Shown: piece by piece, positions 72 to 14,410 of the stretch
How positions within the stretch are numbered: position 1 is the stretch's first letter
How the letters are laid out: each line of letters starts with the position of its first letter
NCBI GenBank assembly: GCA_945949035.1
Contig: CAMFDH010000012.1
Span: 1-14,664, forward strand
Direction of reading: 5' to 3'
DNA from: an uncultured Actinomyces sp.
GTDB lineage: Bacteria; Actinomycetota; Actinomycetes; Actinomycetales; Actinomycetaceae
DNA: 14,664 nucleotides
Program-made: the position numbers and the translations under genes
Notes under the pieces: model-generated
What the model was told of the DNA's origin: nothing
The model's input: the letters and a program-made list of their open reading frames with translations, nothing else
The model's database searches: none

Positions 72-1166
72 CTACTTACACTCCGTCAGGCTCGCAACCG
101 AGCTGCTCAGCGCGCCGGTCCCGCCCACCAGGTTGACTTGGGCCACCTTCGAATCCGCGGTCTTGATCTGCTTCGACACCACTGAGCCAGGAATGCACGC
201 CCTGTTCGACAGCACCAGGCGTTGCGTGGGGTCACCCGCCGGGGGCGCCGCCGAGAGCGCATCCGGGAAGGACGCTCCAGTCGCGATGAACACCGGCTTG
301 GCACTGCACGACAGCGCCTTATTGACCGCACAACTGGTGGAGTATCGGCAGTCACCGGAGACGCGCTGGACGGAAATCTCCGCCACATTGACCCGAGCTG
401 TCTTGGTAAACGACTTCTGAGTGGCCAAGTCTTTCACCGTGTAGGTAGCATCCACAGCCTTGCCTGCTTGGGCGTTCGTTAGTTGCAATGTCTTGCCAGA
501 CTGGATGGTCTTCCCTGCGACCGCCCAAGAGTACGACTCGGTTACGCCCTGGCTACCCGCTCCCGCGACTGCTGTTGTCATGGTGAGCGTGGAACCCGAC
601 GCCGCTTTGCCCGCAATGCTAACCGACAGCGTCAACGCAGGTTGGGCGGGCACAGTAGATCCCCCGGTCGGCGTCCTGTCGACGTTACCTGTCTTGGAGG
701 GGTTGCCCGCAACATAGAGCGTCCAGTAACTTCCAACCTTCGCCACGCCCGCCGCGCCCATTTGCCCGTGCTTGTCCATCAACCACTCGCGGTGCTTGGT
801 TGAGTTCAACCACGCGTTCGCCACCTGCTGCTCGGTTGAAAAACCTATGCCGATCAGGTCACCACCCAATTGCCATCCAGCGTTCTTCGCAAATGATGCC
901 TGGTACCTGTAGTCGTAGACCTCATACATATGGACGAACTTGTTCACCTTGTTCATGTAGGTCGACCACGTCAGCGCCGCGTCGTACATGGGCTGTACGT
1001 TGAGGAGTGGGCTGAGCCCCGCCTTCTTGCGTTCCTGGTTGATGATGCCGAGGGCGACATCGCCTGGAACCGTCGTGGTTGTGGCCGAGGCCGCCATCAG
1101 GCCCACTTGCTCAAGGCCATCGCCCTCGTCTGCCACGAGCCCCTCGGGCACTACCGGCTCGAGCAC
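72..1166 (-). CDS. CAP-domain (SCP/PR1-like) protein with one CWB2 repeat, probably 5'-truncated
   Basis: The product is 364 residues from a GTG codon. Residues about 35-155 match a bacterial CAP domain: INQERKKAGLSPLL, His79 (KFVHMYE), the AWLNSTKHREWL block around H125-R126, and a closing SYWTLYVAG strand. The usual ENI-type segment reads GDLIGIG. Residues 175-262 are an Ig-like beta domain. Residues 267-364 are one cell-wall-binding repeat 2 (VFIATGASFPDALSAAP, then VNLVGGTGALSSSV), with five Cys (273, 279, 287, 324, 363). CAP/CWB2 proteins normally act outside the cell, with CWB2 binding the wall. Here no signal peptide is visible: the N-terminus is an acidic linker (VLEPVVPEGLVADEGDG), and the frame stays open upstream only to a TAG near 1219, with no ATG and no clear ribosome site. 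The 5' end may have been lost. It follows the LAL gene on the same strand by 91 bases. Confidence 0.8.
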   Translation of the reverse strand: MLEPVVPEGLVADEGDGLEQVGLMAASATTTTVPGDVALGIINQERKKAGLSPLLNVQPMYDAALTWSTYMNKVNKFVHMYEVYDYRYQASFAKNAGWQLGGDLIGIGFSTEQQVANAWLNSTKHREWLMDKHGQMGAAGVAKVGSYWTLYVAGNPSKTGNVDRTPTGGSTVPAQPALTLSVSIAGKAASGSTLTMTTAVAGAGSQGVTESYSWAVAGKTIQSGKTLQLTNAQAGKAVDATYTVKDLATQKSFTKTARVNVAEISVQRVSGDCRYSTSCAVNKALSCSAKPVFIATGASFPDALSAAPPAGDPTQRLVLSNRACIPGSVVSKQIKTADSKVAQVNLVGGTGALSSSVASLTECK

Positions 1167-1257: not shown

Positions 1258-3714
1258 TCAGGTGAGCAGTCCCAGCATGTGCGCCGTCGTCAACGCCTCA
1301 CCCCGCGATGGGGCTCGCAGCTTCGCGTAGATGCTCCGGCAGTGACTCTTCAACGTGTTGGGAGAAAGGTACAGGTCACTGGCGGTTTCAACCATGGTCT
1401 TATTCTTGGTCAGCGCCTGCAACACCTCAATCTCCGCTTTGCTGAGGGCCCCGTACTGATGCGCGCGCCCCTCAACACGCGTGGCCTGGAGCGCTTCGAC
1501 CAACCCACCCATCCCAAGGTCGTCGGCAACTTCCGCAAACATCTCGTAGGGCACCGTCCCCACCAGGGCATCGAGGGCGACCGGCGTCAGTGAAGCCTGC
1601 AGTCCCTGCAGTGTCTGCGCCGCTGCCTCGCGGTTCCCCATCCCGTGTTCAGACAGCGCCCCGATCAGGTCACATTCCTGGCGAGAGCGCACCGAAATCC
1701 CGGCAGGCATCGCCGCTACGATCCGTGCCGCGTCCCCGTACTGACCTTGAAACAACGCGAGCCGAGCCCTCGACTGGCGCAGACCCGTTGATTCCTGCGA
1801 GCCGGGAAGGTTTGACAGCGAGGCGATCTGCCTCGCCGCGTCCTTGTACCTTCCCGTCGTCGTCGCCAGATCGGCCAGACGCCACCCCAACTTCAGTTGC
1901 CAGTAGGGAGAAAGCACGCGCCCCACCGCTGCCTGCCGCATCCGACTGTGCATTTGCACGAGGGCGTTCCCACTGCCACGCAATCGCTCCGTGACCAGGC
2001 TCTCAGCCATGACGACCATGGGCCACTGTTCCATTCGGTCCATCGCGGGGATCAGCCGTTCCAGCGCACCTGTGGCCGGAGCGCAATCACCCTTCTGGTA
2101 CGCCGTAAACACCCGTGCGATGTCTCCGTCTGTCCACGAAAACTCTGGAGCTACGAACTCCGCGTTGGCCGCAAGCGCGTCGGCCCTCTCCAACGCGGCG
2201 GCTGCAGCGTCTCCCTCTCCCTGCAGACTGTGCGCCAGTGCCGCCAACGAAAGTGCGTGCACCTGTTCGAGGACGTTTCCCTGTTCGAGGGCGATCTCCA
2301 GTCCCCACCGCGCCGCCTCTAGCCCGACGTTTAGGTCCCCTACCAGCACCCCGGTCAGTGAGATGACAGCGTAGAGGATCGGGGCTTTGGGGTTGGCGAG
2401 GACGCCGGGGCGCAGTCTCTTATCACCCATCTGCTCCATTAGAGCCACGGAGCTGCCCAGGGCAGCGTCCCACATGCCAAGCATTCGCTCCACGGCGATT
2501 TTCGATGCGGCAGAGGGTACAGCAACTTGCAGGTCGGGTGAGGTTGCCTGTTCCGTCAGCACCCTGTGGAGGCGACCGGCCAGGTCCTCCACCAGTGAGG
2601 CGGGCGTCGACGGCAGCGGCCGTTCCAGCACCAGCCTGACCAACAGCAGGGTGGGATGTTCTTCCAACTGTTCCAAAGAGAGGTTACGCACCGCCTCAAG
2701 CGTTGTCTCCCCACCATCGAGGGTCTCCTGGAAATGCACATGCGCCACATCCTGTGCATCCGTGAAGGCTCCCAGGGCAATCAGGTCGGCAACGGCCCGT
2801 GGCGGTGATTCATTGCCGAGGGTGAGGGCGTGACTGCACTGGAGTTCACGCAACTCCCGCGCCTCCCAATGGTGAGATCCCTGGTACAGCAAGCCGGCCC
2901 GCAGGCCCTCCCTCACCGCGTAATGGGGATGCGCTTCGTCCTTGTCGCCCCCAACTGTCACGTTGGAAGTCACCACTTCCACAACGCCCTCGGCCTGCAG
3001 CCGTTTCAAGGTCGTCTCTGCGTCGCTGGAACTGATGCCGAGGGCGTCCCCGAGCAACTCGGGACGCACCACATCAAGGGACGCAGCGGCAAAGAGAGCC
3101 TTTTTTGTCAGGTCACCGGGAAGATTGTGGTAGATTGTCGCAGCCAACTCGTCGAGCACTTCACCGGCGTCCGCACCGCTGCGATGAGCGCTGAGTGCCA
3201 CGCGAGTCCCTAGCGGCCACCCCGACAACGACTCCAGCAGCGGGGTGAGACTCTGGTAGGCCCCAACATCCAGAAGATCGGCTAAATCGGCGACCTCGTC
3301 TGACTCAAGACGGAGGTCGGCCGCGGTGATGGCGAGGTCGGAGGCCAGTTCATCCAGTCCGCATCGACCCGACACCACGATCGTGTGCGCGCCACGCTCG
3401 GCAACCAGCTCTTTGACTGCCACCTCGGCCAGACGATTGTTACAGTCGTCGATGATGACGGTGGCGCCATCACTGCCCTCCAGAAGTGCTGCCACCACGC
3501 GCGGCAGGTTGCGAATGTCGTGATCGGCCAGGGAAATCCACTGCACCGTCTCTCCGCGCTCCAGCTTGGCGCGGGCCCACTGGCTGAGCAACGTTGTCTT
3601 GCCGTAGCCCGCCGGCGCTTGAACAGTCAAGACCATTCCGGGGACAGTCATACCCCGCAGCCTCTGCTCAAGGGCAGGGCGCGGAAGCACCTTTACACGA
3701 ACGGCAGGAATCAT
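1258..3714 (-). CDS. LuxR-family LAL regulator (MalT-like STAND ATPase), copy 1
   Basis: This 818-residue protein has the size and layout of large ATP-binding LuxR regulators. Walker A is APAGYGKTT at 33-41, Walker B VIIDD at 86-90, VSGR at 114-117, and the GWPL motif typical of STAND/MalT-type ATPases at 165-168. The middle, roughly 280-740, is helical and Ala/Leu-rich, resembling a TPR-like sensor. Residues 756-818 are a LuxR/GerE helix-turn-helix (ALSKAEIEVLQALT, then LSPNTLKSHCRSIYAKL). In this family a ligand on the sensor domain drives ATP-dependent oligomerisation and DNA binding; the ligand here is unknown. The ATG at 3712-3714 begins 40 bases after the upstream paralogue ends. No good Shine-Dalgarno precedes it, so the start is uncertain by a few codons. 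The paralogue upstream shares motifs throughout, so the pair is a tandem duplication, probably co-transcribed. Confidence 0.9.
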   Translation of the reverse strand: MIPAVRVKVLPRPALEQRLRGMTVPGMVLTVQAPAGYGKTTLLSQWARAKLERGETVQWISLADHDIRNLPRVVAALLEGSDGATVIIDDCNNRLAEVAVKELVAERGAHTIVVSGRCGLDELASDLAITAADLRLESDEVADLADLLDVGAYQSLTPLLESLSGWPLGTRVALSAHRSGADAGEVLDELAATIYHNLPGDLTKKALFAAASLDVVRPELLGDALGISSSDAETTLKRLQAEGVVEVVTSNVTVGGDKDEAHPHYAVREGLRAGLLYQGSHHWEARELRELQCSHALTLGNESPPRAVADLIALGAFTDAQDVAHVHFQETLDGGETTLEAVRNLSLEQLEEHPTLLLVRLVLERPLPSTPASLVEDLAGRLHRVLTEQATSPDLQVAVPSAASKIAVERMLGMWDAALGSSVALMEQMGDKRLRPGVLANPKAPILYAVISLTGVLVGDLNVGLEAARWGLEIALEQGNVLEQVHALSLAALAHSLQGEGDAAAAALERADALAANAEFVAPEFSWTDGDIARVFTAYQKGDCAPATGALERLIPAMDRMEQWPMVVMAESLVTERLRGSGNALVQMHSRMRQAAVGRVLSPYWQLKLGWRLADLATTTGRYKDAARQIASLSNLPGSQESTGLRQSRARLALFQGQYGDAARIVAAMPAGISVRSRQECDLIGALSEHGMGNREAAAQTLQGLQASLTPVALDALVGTVPYEMFAEVADDLGMGGLVEALQATRVEGRAHQYGALSKAEIEVLQALTKNKTMVETASDLYLSPNTLKSHCRSIYAKLRAPSRGEALTTAHMLGLLT

Positions 3715-3753: not shown

Positions 3754-6360
3754 CTAAACGATACCCAAACCGCGGGCAACGCTGAGCATGTCCGCCTTGC
3801 TTGTCACATCCAGCTTGGGGTAAATCTGCCGCAAGTGTGCCTTTACGGTATTGGGAGAAAGGGACAACTCCGCTGCCGCCTTGTTGATTGTGCTCGCTTT
3901 CCCAACAGCCTGAACGATTGCCCGTTCACGGGCGCTGAGGGGCTCAACCGTCCTCGAACGGTAGCGAGCAGGCACTGCTTCAATGAGCTCAAGCAGACGC
4001 GAGTCTCCCTTGTGGTGAGCGGCCTCGGCCAACTCCCGCAGCACCCCGAAAGGAATGGTCGGCAGGATCATCTGCACTTGGCCCCGCCCTGCACGCAGGT
4101 CAACGCCGTGTAGCAGGGAGAGTGCCGTCCCCTGGTCACCCGCGGTAAAGAATGCGGCGGCCCCCAGCAGCATCGCACTTTGTGCGTGCAGCCCCGTCGA
4201 TCCGGCCTCCAGCAGTTGTTCTGTTATGCGGATGGCTTCCAGCGGCTGTCCCTGGTGGAATGCCAGGCGCCCCTTCGCCAGGATGACGTCACGGGTCTGC
4301 TCAAGTGGAACCTCAAGCACTGCCTGCGCGGCCCGCAAGTTGGAATCATGCATTGCCAGGTTCGCCATTGTGGCGGCCAGCAGCCCTTCGGCGTAACCGG
4401 GCAGTCGAGGATCAGAACGTTCCTGCAGCCGCCAGCGCAGCCTCTCAAGTGCGGGGCGACTCCCCTGGCTTGTGCGGATGACCCAAGACTCAATGACGGC
4501 GAAGAGTGCCCACTGTTCCATCCGCGGCAGAAGGTACTCTATCGAACCCAGCAATTGCGCGGCTTCCTGGGTCTTCCCCCCGAAGAGGGTGACCATGGCT
4601 CGCGCAATCGTGCCGTTAATTCGGTCAACCTCTGCGGTGTTCACCTCAACCGATACCCTGATGGCATCTGCCCGGCTCAGGTATGAGGCCGCCTCTTCTG
4701 GATTCACCTGCATGGCGTGGAGTAGTGCCAGCCGCTCCAGGGAGGCAACCTGAGCTGCCGGGACGGCCTCGTCCGTCGCTATCCGCAGGGACCGACTTGA
4801 GGTCCGTTCCGCTAACTCATAGTCCCCGCCGAGAATACCGGTTAGGCTCGCAACCGCATACATTAGCGGCAGCTCCGAGGCCGTCCCCCAGTAGGTCCTG
4901 TGGCGGTGTTGTGAGAGGCGCAGTTCCAACTGCTCCGCTAGGGCAGATGCTTTGTCCCAGTGACCTAAGATCCGCTCTGCTGCCACAAGGTAGGTGAGGT
5001 GGACGGCATCCGCATCACTCATTCTTGCGCCATTTGCTGCGTAGACAGCGTCCGTGACTCGCGATGCGATCGAGCGCACCCGATCAATGGGGACGGAGGC
5101 GTCGTTGAGTTGAAGCAGCATCAGCAGCGCCAGAAGTGTCGGGAACCCCGCTAGGGCATCCTGTGGGCTCTGCGCCAGTAACTGCACAATGGGACCGGGA
5201 GCACTGGTGATGCGGGAGAAAAAGCGGATCGCCAAGATCTCGGCCTCCCCCAACTCTCCGTTTTCTAGTAACAGGACGAGGGCGTCGGTTGGGTCGTGTT
5301 CGGCGAGGTCGCGGGCGTGCAGAAGCCAGATCCGCGCAACGTCTTCGTCATCCAGAAACACCTCTTGAAACCAGGTCAACGTGTGTTTCAAGCCGCGGTG
5401 GGGCACATAAATTCCACCCCCGCGCACCCAACGTCTCTCAACCAAACCCCGCGAACTTAGCTCAGCCAAGCACTGCTGCAACTGCGCTGGGCGTAGTCCC
5501 GTCGCCTCGAGCAGGACGAGGGCGGAGGTGCCCCCCACCGCAGCGATTGTTGCGAAAACCCGGGAGGCTTCCTCCGTGAGTGATGCGGCATCGATGCGTT
5601 CTAGGAACAGTGCTGCCCCAAGATCCTCTGCACCTTCGCACGCCCCCTGCAGAATCGCCGCGGTGGCGAGGGGCCACCCACCAATCGCAGCGATCCGTTC
5701 AAGCGCTTCGCCGGCCGCAGACAGCTCCGAGTAGCCGGGAAGAGCGGCAACTTCCTCCGGAGTGAAGGCCAGATCCCGCGCGAAAAGCACCCTGCTGTCG
5801 ACCTGCGACGTAACAAGTGGGGTGTCGAAAGAGGCGAAGCGGCGCCCGGACATAACAAGGTAGATATGCTCGCTACTCATGAAAACACGTAGAAGGCGGT
5901 CGTCAAGGTCCGGGTTGGTAATTTGCTCGTAGTCATCCACGACGACTACGACGGGTTCGGCAAGTTCCTCAACCCACTGCAAGCCGCGTTCCCGCGCTGC
6001 CTCAACACTACCGCTAACCTTGGGTGATCCCTGCAACTTGTAGCTGAAGTCGGCGACCTGCTTCCAGAGTGCAAGCGGTTCTTCTAGGTTTGCTGCACTG
6101 AGGTGCAGCAAAGGGAAATCCGCAGGCAGAGACTCGGTCCACTGGCGCAGCAGCTCGGTTTTCCCGTAGCCTGCAGGGGCGGAGAGGACTGTCAGCGGGG
6201 CAAGATCCACCCCGGGAGTGCCAAGGCGCTCGACCAACTGCCGCCGCTCAACAAGCTTCCCATTCAGCAAAGGGCGTGCAGGCGCTGTTTCGCTGCGGGG
6301 GCTCTCCCGAAGACCGTTTGGACCCAATTTGCAACTCCGCATTTCTCTGCCACTAAGCAC
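3754..6360 (-). CDS. LuxR-family LAL regulator (MalT-like STAND ATPase), copy 2
   Basis: This 868-residue protein is the longer of two tandem LAL regulators. Walker A is APAGYGKTE at 61-69, Walker B VVVVVDD at 137-143, MSGRR at 170-174 and GWPL at 228-231. A helical TPR-like middle follows, and a LuxR helix-turn-helix occupies about 807-868 (PLSARERAIVQAV, then LSPNTVKAHLRQIYPKL). Its sensor core aligns by eye with the neighbour (MYAVASLTGILGGDYELA here, LYAVISLTGVLVGDLNVG there), which supports duplication. The GTG start is favoured because GGAG at 6368-6371 lies seven bases upstream; an in-frame ATG six codons further in lacks such a site. A good promoter candidate lies just upstream, and strong hairpins separate it from the surface-protein gene, so it probably heads its own transcript with copy 1. 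Target genes and ligand are not deducible; the adjacent surface-protein gene is the obvious candidate (inference). Confidence 0.9.
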   Translation of the reverse strand: MLSGREMRSCKLGPNGLRESPRSETAPARPLLNGKLVERRQLVERLGTPGVDLAPLTVLSAPAGYGKTELLRQWTESLPADFPLLHLSAANLEEPLALWKQVADFSYKLQGSPKVSGSVEAARERGLQWVEELAEPVVVVVDDYEQITNPDLDDRLLRVFMSSEHIYLVMSGRRFASFDTPLVTSQVDSRVLFARDLAFTPEEVAALPGYSELSAAGEALERIAAIGGWPLATAAILQGACEGAEDLGAALFLERIDAASLTEEASRVFATIAAVGGTSALVLLEATGLRPAQLQQCLAELSSRGLVERRWVRGGGIYVPHRGLKHTLTWFQEVFLDDEDVARIWLLHARDLAEHDPTDALVLLLENGELGEAEILAIRFFSRITSAPGPIVQLLAQSPQDALAGFPTLLALLMLLQLNDASVPIDRVRSIASRVTDAVYAANGARMSDADAVHLTYLVAAERILGHWDKASALAEQLELRLSQHRHRTYWGTASELPLMYAVASLTGILGGDYELAERTSSRSLRIATDEAVPAAQVASLERLALLHAMQVNPEEAASYLSRADAIRVSVEVNTAEVDRINGTIARAMVTLFGGKTQEAAQLLGSIEYLLPRMEQWALFAVIESWVIRTSQGSRPALERLRWRLQERSDPRLPGYAEGLLAATMANLAMHDSNLRAAQAVLEVPLEQTRDVILAKGRLAFHQGQPLEAIRITEQLLEAGSTGLHAQSAMLLGAAAFFTAGDQGTALSLLHGVDLRAGRGQVQMILPTIPFGVLRELAEAAHHKGDSRLLELIEAVPARYRSRTVEPLSARERAIVQAVGKASTINKAAAELSLSPNTVKAHLRQIYPKLDVTSKADMLSVARGLGIV

Positions 6361-6487: not shown

Positions 6488-9400
6488 CTATGCGCTGAGG
6501 TGCCGTCCGCGTCCTCTGGTCTTGCTGGCACGTAGAGCAACGTAGCCACCTCCCAGAAGTAGCAGTGCGCCACCAAGAACGAGGCCGACGTTTGCCCCTG
6601 TAACCGGCAGCTTCCCACCGGAACCAGGAACCGTGTGGTTCGTGGTGCACTTGTCTGCAACACACTCACCAAGTGGTGACGCAGGTGTAGCAACGTTCTT
6701 GAACTTGACGTTCTTCGCGTCTGCGTTGACCTTCACCTTGTAGGAGACGGTCACAGATTCACCGGTTGGAACCTCTGGGACACTCCACGTCAGCGTCTTG
6801 CCGTCCTCGGAAAGAGCCAGCTCATCATTCAGGCTGTCCTTCACAAGGGTGGCGTGCTTGAGCACATCCGTAAGGTTGTCCTCAACCAGTGCGTCAAACA
6901 GGTTAACTTCCCCGGTGTTCGTTACCTTCAGCGTGTAGGTGACGATCTCGCCTGGCTTCACTTCTGAGCCTGACTTGGCAACCGAAGACTTCTCCAGCTC
7001 CCAAGTTGGTGCTTCAGGAACCCTGACACAACCTGCATCGTTGACCTCAACTTCACCGGAAACCATCCCCAGCTGGTTACCAAGCGGAATGCCGTACCCT
7101 CCGGCCTCGCACTCTTCAGGTAGCGGAACGCTCTCTACCTTGGCAGGATCCACGGCAATTTTCGCGGTGACCGTGAACTTGTCGGAGGCTCCGGGGGCAA
7201 GACGACCTGCAGCGAAGACCCAGTCTCCTTCAGCCGGCTTCGAGGGCGCTACAACACGCGCATCCTCAGTCGGCGCAACAGCCACAGCAGTCCAGGTGGT
7301 GCCTTCGACCAGTGATACCCCTGTTGGGAACGCATCAGGCGTATCTGTCAGTTCGTAGACAACATCGATGTCATTGTCGTTACGAACCGTGATGTCGTAG
7401 CTAACAGTGAAGGTTCCGTCGGCGTTCTGAATCGGGTCCTGACCAACCTTAGTCGCGGATGGCGCGGCAGGCTCTGAACAAGCATTCACCTCTGTTTCGG
7501 TCGAGTTGGACGTCAGGACCGCCCGGTTCAAGAAACCGGACTTCTCTGCCCCTTCCTCGCCCGCAACACATACATTCGTCCCGCCCTCGAACGCTGAAGA
7601 CTTAGCGTTCGCAACTACGGAAACCTTGTAAACATGCTGTGGATCTTCGGTTGTGATGATCTTCCCGGACGCGAGTTGGGCGTTCCAGTTACTTGAGTTG
7701 AAGTCCGAGACGCTGCCCGCAGGCTCTGGCTGAACCTGCTGCCATGTGGCTGAGACAGGTGTCAGACCATCGCCGTAGTCCAGTGTGTCTGTCAGGTCAT
7801 ACTTGGCCGACAGACCGCTGGGGTTCAGACCCTTGGTCGGCAGGGTAACAACGACCTCGTACTCAATACCCCAGGTCCCGTCATCATTCTGGACGGTGCT
7901 GAGGGCGTTCTTCTCAACCGATGGGTTCACCGCCGGGGTGATCTCTCCACAGGCATCATCTGTCTGGGTGGTTCCACCGTTGACCAGACGAGCCTCGTTG
8001 AAGAATCCGTGTCCCGCACCCGAAGCCTCACACTCGGCGAGGTCAGCAGGAATGCTTGCGGGAATCCGCACGTCCCAGGTCACCTGGTAGCGCACCATTC
8101 CGCCGCGCGGAACTTCCACTCCGCGCTCAATCAACCAGGCATCGTCACCATCAACGGCAACGGTACCTTCGGTGATGTCAATGCCACCCTCGTTGGGGTA
8201 GGGAGAGAACCAGTTGCCCTCTACCAGTTCCACACCGGTTGGGAAGCCTGGCTCATCGTAAACGTCCACGTAGAAGGAAGCAGTGGGGCTTCCGAGGACG
8301 AATACCGAGTAGCCAACCGACCAAACGTTGGGGTCGTCGGCATGTGGCTGCGCGAAGAGGAACTGCTTGTCGATGCCAGGTCGCTGCGGTGATGCGCAGT
8401 CTTCCGCGTCATCGCTTCCGCCAACCCACTCTAGGTGAGCCGTGTTAAAGAAGCCACCGTTTGCCGGTCCCCCCTGTGCTTCACACTTGGTGGGCTGGGT
8501 GTCAGCGGTCCAGGCACCCGGTTCAACGCTGGCGTTGACCGTCACCGTGTAGGTGTCGGTCTGCCCGGCAGGAAGAGCCTGGGAAGTCGCTAGTGTCACC
8601 GAAGTAGCACCGCCAGCGATTGTTCCACTTGCGGCCCCATTACGACCGGTCCACTGGCCACCCACAACCTTGATCTGCGACTGATCGAACTTGATTCCGT
8701 CGGTCAGGTCGTAGGTCTGTGCAAACTCGCTGTTGTTGGCCACAGTCACGTCATAGGTGACGTCCCATGTTCCATCAACGCGCTGACTTGAGGACTTCCA
8801 AGTCTTGTCCAGGTCGAGGTCGCCCACGGGAATTGCCACGCAACCCGTGTCCTTATCGTTGTGTTTGCCGGACGTTACCTCTGCCAGGTTGGGGAACACA
8901 ATCCCGTGTACCTCGGTGTCCGCACAGTCCGCAACTGCGCTGTCGTCGACAGCGGTTGTTACCTTGACGGTTGTTGAAACCGTGTAGGTGTAGTCAGTTC
9001 CTGCGGGAATACGTGCCCCGTCGACGAGTGTCCAGGCACCAGTCCCGTTAAACCTGTCACCATCAAGCGGTGTGCCTTCTGGTGCTGTTGCCACCCAGTC
9101 ACTCAAGCGCTCAACACCAGTAGGCATCGGATCAGGAGTATCAGTGAGGGTGAAAGGCAGTTCGGAGTCTGATGGATTCGACACGGTCACGTCATAGGTA
9201 AGCGTCCAGGTTGTGCCATCATCGCCAAGCGTTGCGGACCGTCCGGTCTTCTCAACGGAGGGGATTGCCGGCGTCGAGCAGGCATCGTCAACAACGTGGC
9301 CCCCGGAGTAGTCCAGGGTTGCAACGTTAAGGAAGCCCCCTGCATTCTGTGTTCCCGGTGCGGAGCACTTCAATGCATCACTGCCCCATGCACCCTCGTC

Positions 9401-12064
9401 CACCGAAGCATTCACAGTTACCGTGTACGTGTGCTCGTACGTGTTCTTCGGGTCGGCATCCTTCGAACCACCGATGGGGCGATCATCAGCCATTTGAGCC
9501 GATGAGGTCCCCAAGTTGAAGCTGCCGTTCTGGGGATTCTGTGACGATACCTGGTCAGGGTTGTTCCCCGTCAGTACCCAAGAAGCGTTGTTGACCGTGA
9601 TGCCTGCACCGAACTTCAACTCATCACTCAGGTCATACGTGGTGCGACCATAGTGTGGGTCATCTTCAGTTCCCGTGTTAGGCATGGAAACGACAACGTT
9701 GTAAACGATTGTCCACGTCCCATCGTCTTCAGCCGTGGTGCTAGCGACAGACTTCTCCATGTTCAACTGGGTCATCTCGATCGCAACACAACCATCATCG
9801 GAGGCTTCGAAGCTGCCAGTCCTGATGGTCGCACCATTGATTAGGACGAGGCCGGTCTTACCCGTGTCCTCACAAACCTCATTGCCAATAGCAACGGTGC
9901 GGTCAACTTCCACAACAGCCTTGATCAGGTACGTGTGCGTTGCGTCTGGAGTCAGTGTTCCCGTGGCAATCTGCCATGGATCGTTGTCGCCCTTGGTCCC
10001 CTGGGATATGTTTCCCGCGGGATTCCCGGCCTCAACTGTCCAATCACCCACCTGTGAAACACCTTCTGGCAGATCCGGAGGTGTGTCAGTCAGCGTGTAG
10101 TCAAGTGCGGCCTCGGTTGGGTTGCTGACCTCAATCTTGTAAACGAGGTCGTAGACCAGACCTGGTCCGGCACGCTTCTCAGCACTCATGCCGGTCTTTT
10201 CGATAGTCGGAGCACCCGTCTCATGGGTGGTCTCACGGCAGTTGGGGTCGTCTACTTCACAGTCTGTAGGAGGCGTGACTGTGTCAGGAACGGTGACAAC
10301 ATTCTTCAGTGTCACGCCCACGGCACTGTCCTTGACCGTGACCGTGTACTTCAGCGTCGTGGTTGTCTTGGCAGTCAGCGTGCCAACGTTCCACGTCAGT
10401 TGGTCGCCGGTAACGCTCGCTGTTCCTTGCCCTGCCACGATTGAGCCAGAATCGAGAACCGCGTACTTCAGAACCTCGGTGAGGTCGTCATTGACAACAA
10501 CGTCCTTCACATCAACGTTCGACGTGTTTTCCGCCGTAACGGTGTACGTGATGTCCTGGCCCGGCTTTACAGTCGAACCACTCGCAGGGTTAGAGGACTT
10601 GGTTAGCTCCCATGAACCCGCTTTTGGTGTATTGGTGAAGGTACAAACCGTTGCAGCAGAGGACTGCGGGATGGTGATGGATCCAGACGTGCCGTTGCCA
10701 TCCCCACTCTGCGACACGACGGTGTTCCCGACTTTGCAGACCCAGCTAGAGGTGTAGCCGTCGGCAATGTTGCCACCAACCAGTGCTTCACTGAATGTTA
10801 GCTTTTGTCCGCGAGTGACGGGCTCTGGTCCGATCTGCTCGGTCTGGAGCCCGTTGGCGGAACCTGTGGTGACTGCGCTAGCAACTTCCTTGCCTGCGTT
10901 GCTCAATGACAACTTGAACTGATCGCCGGATGAAGCTCGATCCACGATGTTCTTCTGAATCGTCAGGGTTGGCGGGTTGGAGCAGGAAGCCAGGTCGGTG
11001 CTATCAATGTTGGAATTGTTGAGCTTGGCGGAAGCCTTGTCCCAACCAGGCATTGTGAAGCCGTAGATGTTGGCGGCGTCACCTAGGTAGACCTTTCCAT
11101 CATTGCCGTAGGCAGCACCATTGATGTTGGACATCCCCGAGTTGGCACTTCCATTCTCAGATCGGCTGATCTTCTTGCCGGGGTCATTGATTGCACTCTG
11201 CAGGCTCGCAGCTGTGACGGTGTATCCGCGAACGGTCGGCCCGTTGCCATGGACGATGAAGAGGTTGCCGTCAACGTCGAATGCCATGTCGCCATTATTG
11301 GTTGCATTGCTTCCTGAGACCGTGGTGGCCGTAATGTAACCCACGTAACTGTTCGCATTGGTGGTGACATTGTGCCTGTAGATATGAAAAGCGTTTGAGG
11401 CATACCCACCGAAGAAGTAGTCGCCCGTCTTGAGGTCAACAGCTCCCGCAACGAACTGCGCACCCTGGCCAGGTGAGTACTTCCCTCCTTGAGACGTCCA
11501 GTTGCCGGCAGCAGGATCGTACTTGTAAATCTGCACGGCCCCAACGTTGTTGTTGCCGTTCGAGCTTCGTTCATACCCGTACGCAACGTTTCCTCCGGCT
11601 CCGATGGCGAGCCCGTTGAAGGAGGACACGCTAGAAGGCTCGTTGCCCACTTTCTTGACAGCTCCACCAGGAAGCGCCACTTCCTGAATCTGACCTGACG
11701 CGGACACGGCGTAGATCGCCTCGCATGAAAGCGGGTTGATCGTGGCGGCCAACGGCGCCGGGGTCGCAGCACGCTGTTCGACCTTTGCAGGGGTCTTCGC
11801 GGGTGTCTCCTCGATGGCATTCTCTAGCAGTTCTTCGACATCACCGGACTGCGCCTCATTCTGGCTCAGATCGGTCTCGCTAGTCAGAACGGGCTCATCG
11901 CTCACGGCAAGATCGGGGGCGCTCACCGCCAATGCTGGTACAGAGAGTGCGGTAGGGACGATCAATGCTGTCGCCGCGAGCAACGCGGCAAACACTTGGT
12001 TTCGCCTCTTCTTGGGGGCGCTATGGCGGCCTTTTGTCTTATTGGTTTGCACCTGGTACTCCAT
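6488..12064 (-). CDS. Giant LPXTG-anchored surface protein with alternating DUF11-like repeats
   Basis: This 1858-residue protein is built for wall display. A basic N-terminus is followed by a hydrophobic segment (about 24-46) with likely cleavage after ALA at 44-46. Residues 47-108 are an acidic/Pro-Ala linker. Residues about 110-361 are Gly/Asn-rich, with repeated AVDLKTGDYFFGG- and AFDVDGNLFIVHG-like strands suggesting a beta-propeller head (DUF6923-like; family name less certain). Residues 365-480 resemble a SpaA/Cna-B-type fold. Residues 483-618 are DUF11-like, 619-1686 hold seven alternating repeats, and 1687-1812 form a second DUF11-like domain. LPVTG at 1819-1823, a membrane helix (about 1826-1846) and a basic tail complete a sortase signal. 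A pilin-type lysine motif was not seen, so a long adhesin or pilus-tip protein is likelier than a shaft pilin. The ATG at 12062-12064 lacks a good ribosome site; GTG at codon 5 (12050-12052) has GGAG six bases upstream and may be the true start. Confidence 0.93.
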   Translation of the reverse strand: MEYQVQTNKTKGRHSAPKKRRNQVFAALLAATALIVPTALSVPALAVSAPDLAVSDEPVLTSETDLSQNEAQSGDVEELLENAIEETPAKTPAKVEQRAATPAPLAATINPLSCEAIYAVSASGQIQEVALPGGAVKKVGNEPSSVSSFNGLAIGAGGNVAYGYERSSNGNNNVGAVQIYKYDPAAGNWTSQGGKYSPGQGAQFVAGAVDLKTGDYFFGGYASNAFHIYRHNVTTNANSYVGYITATTVSGSNATNNGDMAFDVDGNLFIVHGNGPTVRGYTVTAASLQSAINDPGKKISRSENGSANSGMSNINGAAYGNDGKVYLGDAANIYGFTMPGWDKASAKLNNSNIDSTDLASCSNPPTLTIQKNIVDRASSGDQFKLSLSNAGKEVASAVTTGSANGLQTEQIGPEPVTRGQKLTFSEALVGGNIADGYTSSWVCKVGNTVVSQSGDGNGTSGSITIPQSSAATVCTFTNTPKAGSWELTKSSNPASGSTVKPGQDITYTVTAENTSNVDVKDVVVNDDLTEVLKYAVLDSGSIVAGQGTASVTGDQLTWNVGTLTAKTTTTLKYTVTVKDSAVGVTLKNVVTVPDTVTPPTDCEVDDPNCRETTHETGAPTIEKTGMSAEKRAGPGLVYDLVYKIEVSNPTEAALDYTLTDTPPDLPEGVSQVGDWTVEAGNPAGNISQGTKGDNDPWQIATGTLTPDATHTYLIKAVVEVDRTVAIGNEVCEDTGKTGLVLINGATIRTGSFEASDDGCVAIEMTQLNMEKSVASTTAEDDGTWTIVYNVVVSMPNTGTEDDPHYGRTTYDLSDELKFGAGITVNNASWVLTGNNPDQVSSQNPQNGSFNLGTSSAQMADDRPIGGSKDADPKNTYEHTYTVTVNASVDEGAWGSDALKCSAPGTQNAGGFLNVATLDYSGGHVVDDACSTPAIPSVEKTGRSATLGDDGTTWTLTYDVTVSNPSDSELPFTLTDTPDPMPTGVERLSDWVATAPEGTPLDGDRFNGTGAWTLVDGARIPAGTDYTYTVSTTVKVTTAVDDSAVADCADTEVHGIVFPNLAEVTSGKHNDKDTGCVAIPVGDLDLDKTWKSSSQRVDGTWDVTYDVTVANNSEFAQTYDLTDGIKFDQSQIKVVGGQWTGRNGAASGTIAGGATSVTLATSQALPAGQTDTYTVTVNASVEPGAWTADTQPTKCEAQGGPANGGFFNTAHLEWVGGSDDAEDCASPQRPGIDKQFLFAQPHADDPNVWSVGYSVFVLGSPTASFYVDVYDEPGFPTGVELVEGNWFSPYPNEGGIDITEGTVAVDGDDAWLIERGVEVPRGGMVRYQVTWDVRIPASIPADLAECEASGAGHGFFNEARLVNGGTTQTDDACGEITPAVNPSVEKNALSTVQNDDGTWGIEYEVVVTLPTKGLNPSGLSAKYDLTDTLDYGDGLTPVSATWQQVQPEPAGSVSDFNSSNWNAQLASGKIITTEDPQHVYKVSVVANAKSSAFEGGTNVCVAGEEGAEKSGFLNRAVLTSNSTETEVNACSEPAAPSATKVGQDPIQNADGTFTVSYDITVRNDNDIDVVYELTDTPDAFPTGVSLVEGTTWTAVAVAPTEDARVVAPSKPAEGDWVFAAGRLAPGASDKFTVTAKIAVDPAKVESVPLPEECEAGGYGIPLGNQLGMVSGEVEVNDAGCVRVPEAPTWELEKSSVAKSGSEVKPGEIVTYTLKVTNTGEVNLFDALVEDNLTDVLKHATLVKDSLNDELALSEDGKTLTWSVPEVPTGESVTVSYKVKVNADAKNVKFKNVATPASPLGECVADKCTTNHTVPGSGGKLPVTGANVGLVLGGALLLLGGGYVALRASKTRGRGRHLSA
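7013..10204 (-). repeat. Seven ~150-residue protein repeats in alternating A-B-A-B-A-B-A order
   Basis: Repeats begin at residues 621, 769, 937, 1085, 1231, 1383 and 1537 of the surface protein, with first codons at about 10204, 9760, 9256, 8812, 8374, 7918 and 7456. Type A (1, 3, 5, 7) carries a TDTPxxxPxGV-like turn; type A 5 reads YDEPGFPTGV. Type B (2, 4, 6) carries YDLxDxLxFGxG-like sequence, and B ends with a GFxNxAxL strand. All open with an xEK/xDK-like lysine (TK in the last) and end with two Cys 27-30 residues apart. The copies have diverged at DNA level, so this is an old protein-level repeat rather than a recent tandem DNA duplication. Confidence 0.85.
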
Positions 12065-12359: not shown

Positions 12360-13523
12360 CTAGCTCTTCGACGGCGCAATCGGCAGACTCGCCCGCACCA
12401 CCCAGTCTGAACCAACAATGCCCGCACTGAACTCCCCTTCAACACCGAGGACGCGCTGCGCCATTCGGTTCAGGCCCGTGCCCGTTGACGGCAGGTCACG
12501 GCGCGGCGTGGCTGGCAGAGGGTTGGAGATCGTCATCTCCACAACCTGGTCATCGACCTCGACCTCAAACACCACGTCCCCCGGCCCCGAGTACTTGAGA
12601 ATGTTCGTTGTGGACTCGCGGACGATCCGCGCGAAGATGATCTCAGTCCCACGGGGAATCACCGGGTTCCCAGGATCCCCGGTTAGAACGGTCTTACGAC
12701 CAGTTGCGTGCAGCTCCGCACGCGCCTCCTCGATTGCGGAGTCCAAGTCACCGGAAGAGATCCCCGCGGTATCCGTAATCTCATCGGCCAACGCAATGAC
12801 GAACCGCAAGTCGTTGAGAGCCTTGCGCGCCGAGAGCCGAATGACATCGGCTGATTCCTCCCGCGTCCGCTCATCATCGAGCAGCTGGGAGTGAAGGGTC
12901 ACCACAGTCAGGTGGTGTGCGATGCTGTCGTGCAGTTCCCCTGCGATCCACCGTCGTTCGGCGAGGACGGCTTCGTGCTCACGTTCCTTCTGTTCCTCAA
13001 GCGCCGCTTCTAGCCGTTCACCACGTGCGTACGCAACCCGCAGCGCCAACCCGACAAGACCCGATATGGCGGCAACTAGCAGTAGTGCCGACACGCTGGT
13101 CGTTTCCCCGTTGCGGCTCCCTAGTCCGGATGAAATTGCCGCACCGGTAACTAGTAGACCTCCAATGTAGGTAAGGATGAGGGGTGTCGACCCCAGCCGC
13201 ATCACCAAGAGTGCAGCAACTGAACCTGCGATCACCGTATCTACGGCATTGCCTGTTGCGAAGGCTATGAGGACAACACCGCCCAACACGGCGGTCGCGA
13301 TTGGCGGAGACCATATATAGCCGATTAGGGCTACCGTCACCAAGATGCTGATGATTCCGGCTTGAATGTTGGGACTGGAACTCAGAGCCATGACCAAAAT
13401 GTCACTGACTACAAGAACGCCAACCAGCCCGAACAGAACGAACTGTTCGGGCTGGCTGAGGTATTCGGTCTTGTCAAACCATTGTCGACCTGAGGGCCCT
13501 GTCGCCTTCTGCTTGTGCACCAT
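12360..13523 (-). CDS. NarL-class sensor histidine kinase
   Basis: This 387-residue kinase has about six membrane helices (residues roughly 28-165) with short loops and no large extracellular sensor domain. A charged linker helix follows (168-190), then a HisKA_3 dimerisation/phosphoacceptor domain with ERRWIAGELHDSIAHHL (His198), and an HATPase_c domain with the N-box around E303-N308 (RIVRESTTNILKYS) and a GTGLNRM glycine-rich loop at 348-354. It should autophosphorylate on His198 and pass phosphate to the divergent response regulator next door. The stimulus is unknown; the intramembrane layout suggests sensing at or within the membrane, as in envelope-stress kinases. The ATG at 13521-13523 has GGAG only two bases upstream, whereas the next codon, GTG, has ideal five-base spacing; either start changes one residue. 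It ends 295 bases before the surface-protein gene on the same strand. Confidence 0.93.
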   Translation of the reverse strand: MVHKQKATGPSGRQWFDKTEYLSQPEQFVLFGLVGVLVVSDILVMALSSSPNIQAGIISILVTVALIGYIWSPPIATAVLGGVVLIAFATGNAVDTVIAGSVAALLVMRLGSTPLILTYIGGLLVTGAAISSGLGSRNGETTSVSALLLVAAISGLVGLALRVAYARGERLEAALEEQKEREHEAVLAERRWIAGELHDSIAHHLTVVTLHSQLLDDERTREESADVIRLSARKALNDLRFVIALADEITDTAGISSGDLDSAIEEARAELHATGRKTVLTGDPGNPVIPRGTEIIFARIVRESTTNILKYSGPGDVVFEVEVDDQVVEMTISNPLPATPRRDLPSTGTGLNRMAQRVLGVEGEFSAGIVGSDWVVRASLPIAPSKS

Positions 13524-13561
13524 TGCTCCAGTATGACGAGGAAGGACCGAGTCTGGTGGAA

Positions 13562-13567
13562 GTATTA
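13562..13567 (-). promoter_or_regulatory. Candidate -10 of the histidine kinase gene
   Basis: On the minus strand TAATAC lies about 38 bases upstream of the kinase ATG, giving a leader near 30 bases that includes the GGAG site. The nearest TTG-type -35 (TTGGAA, 13588-13593) is 20 bases away, too far to be convincing. Weak call. Confidence 0.25.
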
Positions 13568-13741
13568 GCGGATGAACCCGAAGAAGATTCCAAGCTGTCG
13601 CCAGATGTACATTGGTCGCACCCCCTCGATTTGGCTATTGGCCATTTGTCTTGTTGAGGTCTATTCTTCCGTCGAATGCGACGTTGAACATCGGACAATT
13701 CGCTAGAGTTTTATTGGCCAAACGTCTAATGAACTGGGCAT

Positions 13742-13747
13742 TAGAAT
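13742..13747 (+). promoter_or_regulatory. Candidate -10 for a leaderless response-regulator transcript
   Basis: TAGAAT ends six bases before the ATG at 13754. At usual -10-to-start spacing, transcription would begin at the A of the ATG. The 18 bases before the ATG contain no Shine-Dalgarno, which fits a leaderless mRNA, common in actinobacteria. No convincing -35 exists at 16-19 bases. Confidence 0.35.
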
Positions 13748-13753
13748 GTCTTC

Positions 13754-14410
13754 ATGAATGAGATTCGGGTAGTCATAGCTGACGATGATCCCCTGGTGCG
13801 GGTTGCACTGTCCCACTTCGTCTCCCGCGACCCTGAAATCGTCGTGGTTGGGGAAGCTTCCGATGGCGCAGAAGCCCTCAAAGAGATCGAGGAGCACCAC
13901 CCCGACATCGTCATGATGGATGTGCAGATGCCTGGAATGGGTGGGATCGAAGCAACTGAGCAAATCTCGGAGCGCTTCCCCGACGTCCGCGTCCTTGCCG
14001 TCACCACTCTCGACACCCGTGAAACTGTGCTGCCGATGCTTAGCGCCGGAGCCACCGGCTACATGCTCAAGGATTCAAGCGCCGACGAAATCCTTGCCGC
14101 CCTGCGCCAAGCCCACGACGGCACCAGTTCCCTCTCCCCGCGCATCGCTGCGATGCTGGTCCGCCACGTCCGCAGCTCATCGACTGGAACACCTAGCTCC
14201 TCAGACCTAGCGCCACTGACCGGCCGGGAGAATGAGGTCCTGAGTCTCCTTGCCCGCGGCATGTCGAACGCGGAGATGGCAGACACCCTCCTGGTATCGG
14301 AGGGCACCATCAAAGCCCACCTCGGCAGCATCATCTCTAAATGGCATCTACGTGACCGCGTGCAGGTACTTGTTGCGGCGGCCAGGGCCGGTCTAGTCCA
14401 CTTTGACTAG
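13754..14410 (+). CDS. NarL/FixJ-family response regulator
   Basis: This 218-residue protein has a receiver domain (about 4-120) with the acidic trio D10-D11-D12, phosphoacceptor Asp56 (IVMMDVQMPGM), Thr84 and Lys106 (YMLKDS), so every residue needed for phosphotransfer is present. A short linker leads to a LuxR/GerE helix-turn-helix at about 152-215 (LTGRENEVLSLLARGMS, then VSEGTIKAHLGSI). It is divergent from the histidine kinase, which is its likely cognate partner. Phosphorylation should promote dimerisation and DNA binding. The nearby surface-protein promoter, its own 230-base divergent region and the sortase operon to the right are candidate targets (inference). The ATG at 13754 is chosen because the receiver starts immediately after it (IRVVIADDD). 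It ends convergently with the sortase, 40 bases apart. Confidence 0.95.
   Translation: MNEIRVVIADDDPLVRVALSHFVSRDPEIVVVGEASDGAEALKEIEEHHPDIVMMDVQMPGMGGIEATEQISERFPDVRVLAVTTLDTRETVLPMLSAGATGYMLKDSSADEILAALRQAHDGTSSLSPRIAAMLVRHVRSSSTGTPSSSDLAPLTGRENEVLSLLARGMSNAEMADTLLVSEGTIKAHLGSIISKWHLRDRVQVLVAAARAGLVHFD

Follow-up and report, generated by a model that had tools for sequence, protein, structure and literature searches.

A stalk of seven alternating units, predicted to be isopeptide domains, in a sortase-anchored surface protein of an uncultured Actinomyces sp.

The stretch analysed here (the window) comprises 14,664 nucleotides (nt) of an uncultured Actinomyces sp. of the Actinomycetaceae (assembly GCA_945949035.1, contig CAMFDH010000012.1). 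One minus-strand open reading frame (ORF) encodes a protein of 1858 amino acids (aa), flanked on one side by two regulator genes and on the other by a histidine kinase and a response regulator (Table 1). Nucleotides 7013-10204 correspond to residues 621-1684 of this protein, and the region consists of seven successive units, termed A1, B1, A2, B2, A3, B3 and A4. Pfam and NCBIfam name the parts around the seven units and leave the units themselves unnamed. The reading argued for here is that the units are CnaA-like, immunoglobulin (Ig)-type β-sandwich isopeptide domains, relatives of DUF11 (CLIPPER) and DUF7927, which form the stalk of a sortase-anchored adhesin (probability about 0.85).

The units are 146-168 aa long in the window. 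The initial annotation, made by a model from the letters alone, placed a Lys, an Asp and an Asn in every unit, and all 21 of the residues that it named are present. Eight columns of a MAFFT alignment of the seven units are invariant (K, Y, V, D, W, C, N and C), so that the Lys/Asp/Asn trio is invariant in the window together with a Cys pair that the annotation had not mentioned. All 14 Cys of residues 617-1684 fall into two columns. The first Cys precedes the Asn and the second lies exactly 16 residues past it in 7/7 units. The sequence gaps are 35-43 residues from Lys to Asp and 120-142 from Lys to Asn.

These residues are also kept among the relatives. In the search for relatives, scoring was confined to the 7991 candidates with the most shared words, and 120 of its 140 proteins were listed. 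A hidden Markov model (HMM) built from the seven units and run over 121 proteins gave 964 matches, of which 902 are full length (used for residue counts) and 928 passed another filter (used for clustering). A non-redundant set holds 448 units below 60% identity. The 902 full-length units carry Lys in 894 cases (the other eight are gaps), Asp in 891 (11 Glu), Asn in 902, the first Cys in 873 and the second in 898; the trio is complete in 883, and trio and both Cys occur together in 855. For the non-redundant units the numbers are 445 (three gaps), 440 (eight Glu), 448, 429 and 444; 437 have the trio, and 418 of these also both Cys. In this set N, K, C, Y, D and C are the six best-conserved columns, at 96-100%, followed by one at 89%. 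Counted by protein, the trio is found in every full unit of 112/121, Lys gaps being allowed. A second set of 120 matches in 18 named loci was obtained with an HMM trained on the first set. Residues are present at all five columns in 94/120 matches, of which 92 show the trio and 88 also both Cys; Ser replaces Asn in four second-set matches.

Units A2 and B2 were modelled with AlphaFold2, and both models are confident β-sandwiches (predicted local distance difference test 96.5 and predicted template modelling score 0.90 for A2; 92.3 and 0.87 for B2). In the A2 model the first strand contains K7, strand 37-45 contains D43 and strand 120-133 contains N127, with C143 in the last strand, 136-147; the B2 model is similar. 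A first-strand Lys, a mid-domain Asp and an Asn in a late strand, as predicted in both models, are the residue arrangement of CnaA-like isopeptide domains. The CnaA-like families listed in a global survey of intramolecular isopeptide bonds (PMC12617251) share the order Lys, Asp, Asn. Subtraction of the positions in Table 1 of the survey, with the split GBS104 excluded, gives gaps of 35-62 for Lys-Asp and 66-147 for Lys-Asn, the long end being that of DUF7925 and AgI_II_C2. A CnaB-like domain was rejected, since it needs a catalytic Glu and Asp occupies the position in 7/7 window units and far outnumbers Glu in the full-length set.

VIA-align matches the two models to the Protein Data Bank (PDB) chain 9ifr at Z 9.1 (114 residues aligned, 2.9 Å) and 9.5 (114, 2.7 Å), and the pilins SpaD, EbpB, PilA/PilB and BcpA are also among its matches. 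Entry 9IFR is a crystallised isopeptide CLIPPER (DUF11) domain with a Lys715-Asn806 bond and Asp748 (PMC12617251). Of all PDB chains, 9ifr ranks first, though weakly, both for a profile of the seven units (E 0.03) and for one of 73 units (E 0.02; the seven window units plus 66 of 103 full units from the loci). In the latter alignment, the Lys meets chain residue 10 and the Asp of LTD meets an Asp counted as residue 44, which is one off the published Asp748 numbering if residue 10 is Lys715; the match ends before or at the Asn. With hhalign, the units meet DUF7927 at a probability of 95.7%, and in full-length alignments the Lys, the Asn and the second Cys face their counterparts, the Asp being off by four. 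Among 27 DUF7927-like matches that overlap a unit match, the Lys coincides in 18, the Asp in 23 and the Asn in none; in the eight examples shown, the unit match stops before the DUF7927 Asn or leaves it uncovered. DUF11 matches 24/73 units at E ≤1 (best 8.2e-11). For the seven window units the family matches are TIGR04226 in 2/7 (best E 8.9e-5) and DUF11 in 2/7 (best E 0.0058). The window units do not reach the Pfam gathering cut-off of DUF11, the DUF11 matches of the whole protein lying on flanking domains (best stretch 494-594), nor that of DUF7927, which matches 1/7 at E 0.12. The annotation's proposal of an isopeptide-type trio is thereby strengthened in its residues, as the Lys aligns with the bond Lys of 9ifr and Lys and Asn with those of the flanking DUF7927 domains; the bond itself is predicted.

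The units were also said to alternate between two types. Alignment z-scores, computed for unit pairs against 200 shuffles, show that the seven are not equally related: the three pairs among A1, A2 and A4 score 14.0-18.8 and the three B pairs 9.3-16.1, with 3.2-10.1 for the twelve A-B pairs. Unsupervised two-way clustering of the 928 units labels the window ABABABA. The closest protein among those listed, P0001 of Schaalia sp. JY-X169 (Actinomycetaceae; 87% identical over the units), is labelled ABABABABABA. Neighbouring units differ in class in 602/777 cases over all proteins (shuffled mean 390, maximum 438 in 1000 shuffles) and in 362/429 over 66 non-redundant proteins (mean 232, maximum 261). 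Within proteins, similarity is above average at lags 2 (+0.49) and 4 (+0.44) and below it at lags 1 (-0.19), 3 (-0.27), 5 and 7. A simple tandem array is rejected, as odd and even neighbours differ. A four-unit super-repeat is suggested by the joints of the Schaalia protein (12, 10, 13, 10) and by the 0.62 similarity of its units 6 and 10; it is not claimed, because lag 4 does not exceed lag 2. The alternating A-B pair is a real unit, since the two classes stand far beyond the shuffles in the window and in its relatives.

Several observations weigh against a clean two-class picture. Unit A3 scores z 8.7-9.2 with the A units and 6.3-9.6 with the B units; as it is about as similar to one as to the other, its A label is largely positional, and it is a divergent third type; the within-protein similarities agree. 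Alternation is strict in 53/114 proteins with at least five consecutive units and not strict in 61/114, and the arrays of some relatives are uniform, so that alternation is common and not universal. The annotation's further suggestion, an ancestral A-B pair, holds in that the pair is real; its extension to the ancestry of the whole family finds no support in these arrays.

The alternation extends to the joints, defined by the count from a unit's second Cys to the Lys of its successor. Joint length is 10 residues at 335/339 B-to-A junctions and 12 or 13 at 249/252 A-to-B junctions. It follows the class of the preceding unit, A-to-A joints being mostly 12 and B-to-B joints mostly 10. The window joints are, in order, 12, 10, 12, 10, 13 and 10, with 12 after A1 and A2 and 13 after the divergent A3. 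Class and joint length are not fully independent measures, because the class labels use alignment columns that include the unit ends. A label-free test is independent of the class labels: adjacent joints differ (10 versus 12 or 13) in 537/607 cases, with a shuffled mean of 317 and a maximum of 356. Alternating short and long joints between units look new, none being reported in the literature searched, with supplementary files and most subscription papers outside its scope.

The gene of the Schaalia relative differs in array length. It holds 1788 nt (596 aa, four units) that are absent from the window gene at the B3-A4 joint; on either side the two genes agree at 94.0% (up to nucleotide 4607) and 94.6% (from 4594 on). 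The match passes from unit 6 to unit 10 within the codons that specify EPAAPS in the joint. It could be supposed that the difference is an assembly collapse and no real variation, as the gene is repetitive and the window comes from a draft genome (1.69 Mb, 303 contigs, 85% complete). The sequences change over cleanly within one joint, and no exact direct repeat is longer than 14 nt (window gene) or 26 nt (Schaalia gene). Since such repeats are short, a collapse would need very short overlaps, and it is considered unlikely.

The distribution of the units is patchy, as judged from matches in 48/151 Actinomycetaceae genomes sampled (E ≤1e-3) and in 7/296 phylum genomes sampled, own genome included (E ≤1e-15). 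At least four genomes of the same genus are without a unit match. No paralogue of the stalk protein was found in the window's own genome at its 85% completeness. The 18 loci, which come from a separate scan, lie in Leucobacter, Microbacterium, Arthrobacter, Compostimonas, Arachnia, a Propionibacteriaceae draft and Membranihabitans. The last belongs to the Bacteroidota, a Gram-negative phylum, and has tandem units with the trio and the Cys pair (loci L018, L021 and L022); of its 18 matches, ten have the full set of five residues and eight are truncated, with no differing residue.

Table 1. Positions of the stalk units, the remaining protein parts and the neighbouring genes in the window
Feature	Position	Strand	Remarks
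Cell-wall-anchored adhesin-like protein gene	6488..12064	-	ORF; 1858 aa; 87%-identical Schaalia sp. JY-X169 relative
Unit A1, residues 617-764	9773..10216	-	K623 D660 N743, C731-C759
Unit B1, residues 765-932	9269..9772	-	K771 D814 N913, C900-C929
Unit A2, residues 933-1080	8825..9268	-	K939 D975 N1059, C1047-C1075; modelled
Unit B2, residues 1081-1226	8387..8824	-	K1087 D1122 N1207, C1194-C1223; modelled
Unit A3 (divergent), residues 1227-1378	7931..8386	-	K1233 D1270 N1356, C1345-C1372; 13-residue joint after
Unit B3, residues 1379-1532	7469..7930	-	K1385 D1426 N1513, C1499-C1529
Unit A4, residues 1533-1684	7013..7468	-	K1539 D1574 N1663, C1652-C1679
Likely signal peptide, residues 1-46	11927..12064	-	By eye: basic start, hydrophobic stretch, AxA
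N-terminal head, residues 106-365, possible adhesive part	10970..11749	-	No Pfam/PDB sequence match
SpaA_3 domain (CnaB-like), residues 366-480	10625..10969	-	Pfam PF20674, E 5.2e-17
First DUF7927 domain, residues 484-611	10232..10615	-	PF25549, NCBIfam TIGR04226
Second DUF7927 domain, residues 1687-1811	6632..7006	-	PF25549, NCBIfam TIGR04226
Sorting signal: LPVTG (1819-1823), hydrophobic stretch, basic tail	6491..6610	-	Sequence
CAP / cell wall binding 2 protein	72-1166	-	364 aa
MalT-like LuxR regulator	1258-3714	-	ATPase part, TPR-like middle, GerE end
MalT-like LuxR regulator	3754-6360	-	ATPase part, TPR-like middle, GerE end; beside stalk gene
Histidine kinase and response regulator	12360-14410		98.6% identical in Schaalia sp. 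JY-X169

The remaining layout is that of a sortase-anchored surface protein, probably an adhesin. Three features of a fibrillar adhesin are present: the repeated stalk, the sorting signal with its tail, and a likely signal peptide, the last recognised by eye only. Three sortase genes lie elsewhere in the assembly. The two DUF7927 copies together match PF25549 at E 8.2e-40, and K489, D526 and N588 of the first and K1692, D1729 and N1790 of the second occupy the conserved columns. The head, residues 106-365, matches no Pfam family at E ≤0.1 and no PDB chain at E ≤1; when the PDB was searched with the entire protein sequence, all matches were to unrelated proteins and at chance level. Of the listed relatives, 36/120 carry a precomputed von Willebrand A domain.

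The gene order is kept in Schaalia sp. JY-X169: CAP protein, two MalT-like LuxR regulators, adhesin, histidine kinase and response regulator. The CAP / cell wall binding 2 protein has 656 aa there (locus L039, 4091-6061) and matches in two pieces with a differing start. The kinase (over 282 aa) and response regulator are nearly identical between the two (98.6%; L039/L040), and the adhesin and the two regulators are 87-89% identical, so divergence is much faster in the surface gene and its regulators. Of the genomes searched, 8/15 (the window's included) have a regulator match at E ≤1e-10, which in each of them shares a contig with a stalk unit and lies within 31 kb of it; the other 7/15 have no regulator match at this threshold. 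The eight are not independent, because five belong to one genus. The MalT-like regulators may control the adhesin and pilus genes. A second stalk protein of the Schaalia genome (2582 aa; L041, 5433-13181), about 20 kb from the first, also lies beside a MalT-like regulator.

Past the response regulator, the Schaalia genome encodes a sortase, a 474-aa pilin-like protein (GramPos_pilinD1, SpaA and anchor domains), a 1301-aa LPXTG protein and a further MalT-like regulator (L040, 1242-10525). The LPXTG protein has SpaA domains and a von Willebrand A match below cut-off. The sortase, pilin-like and LPXTG genes are likely a pilus operon beside the stalk adhesin. Their presence, and the name "isopeptide-forming domain-containing fimbrial protein" given by NCBI to the Schaalia relative, would suit a stalk protein that is itself a polymerising pilin shaft subunit instead of a single-chain fibrillar adhesin. 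This is improbable, as the neighbouring 474-aa protein is the better shaft candidate and the stalk protein is far longer, with a single sorting signal.

The proposal for the sortase-anchored stalk is as follows. Once the unit has folded, the first-strand Lys would attack the Asn side chain of the penultimate strand, assisted by the Asp between them, to form an internal isopeptide bond. Such a Lys-Asn bond, with an assisting acidic residue, confers resistance to heat and proteases (PMC12617251). The two Cys flanking the Asn would form a disulfide that holds the last strand. A pulling force would then enter at the Lys, cross directly to the Asn and pass on through the short end, so that the unit hardly extends; because the force crosses directly, about 120 of the roughly 150 residues in a unit would be shielded from the pull, and most of the others would be restrained by the disulfide. 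It is very unlikely that these are ordinary Ig-like stalk domains with the disulfide alone, the trio serving packing, hydrogen bonds or a metal: conservation of the Cys pair comes close to that of the trio, and some DUF11 domains are without the bond residues (PMC12617251), but the trio is kept in almost all non-redundant units while the remainder varies widely, and does not depend on the Cys pair, since 19 such units (418 versus 437) have it without the full pair.

Along such a stalk of bonded units, the fixed joints (10 after B, 12-13 after A) would give a regular rod, repeating every two units, that holds the head at a distance from the cell wall, and recombination inside the joint after B would change its length by whole pairs. 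A more far-reaching suggestion, put at slightly under even odds, is that the units are a separate isopeptide family that may have escaped the survey: doubly locked by the Lys-Asn bond and an Asn-bracketing disulfide, and built into a two-joint rod with a fixed two-unit twist, whose alternating joints would stay in register because recombination in the joint after B adds or removes whole pairs. Stalks with isopeptide bonds serve as models of force resistance in proteins and have yielded tools for protein ligation. With both bonds predicted in nearly every unit, and alternating joints over hundreds of units, these arrays would allow the effect of joint length on stalk twist and stiffness to be studied directly.

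Among known systems, the CLIPPER domain 9IFR is like the window units, as modelled, in its β-sandwich, first-strand Lys, intervening Asp and Asn before the last strand; it is also a tandem stalk domain with a disulfide in the last strand (PMC12617251). The window units differ in lying below the Pfam cut-off, in length (146-168 aa versus about 120) and in the strict joint lengths of their arrays. Their Cys pair brackets the Asn, whereas CLIPPER has a CTTC motif after it, and is found in 96% of units; the survey predicts a disulfide for 29.7% of CLIPPER domains and reports disulfides for 41.3% of the isopeptide domains in Actinomycetota (PMC12617251). DUF7927 (PF25549), a predicted isopeptide family in the survey (PMC12617251), flanks the units with two copies and aligns at the Lys, the Asn and the second Cys. 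It is shorter, however, and has no counterpart of the first Cys; its two copies match each other at z 18.2 and any unit at z up to 3.9.

The giant adhesin of Mobiluncus mulieris, also of the Actinomycetaceae, is a sortase-anchored repeat stalk whose Ig-like domains contain isopeptide and disulfide bonds, as established by mass spectrometry and crystal structure (PMC10619420). Its disulfide, Cys6887-Cys6895, lies between Lys6842 and Asn6955 and joins strands 2 and 5, whereas the window Cys bracket the Asn; its stalk also mixes in ester-bond domains (PMC10619420), and it is likened to the window protein by description only. Tandem arrays often alternate two isopeptide families, DUF11 and DUF7507, according to the survey (PMC12617251). 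In contrast, both classes here are of one family without a Pfam model, and joint length alternates too. The source database of the survey, the AlphaFold Database, is limited to 1280 residues (PMC12617251). Only 1/120 listed carriers is of 1280 residues or fewer, in a search that favours lengths near the query; one restricted to 422-1344 aa found 11 proteins at E ≤1e-10. The long carriers may have escaped the survey owing to this limit, which would make carriers above 1280 residues a blind spot. Isopeptide stalks with disulfides are known already, in the Actinomycetaceae as well (PMC10619420); new, as far as the literature was searched, are this subfamily without Pfam annotation, the Cys pair that encloses the Asn in nearly all its units, and the alternation of its joints.
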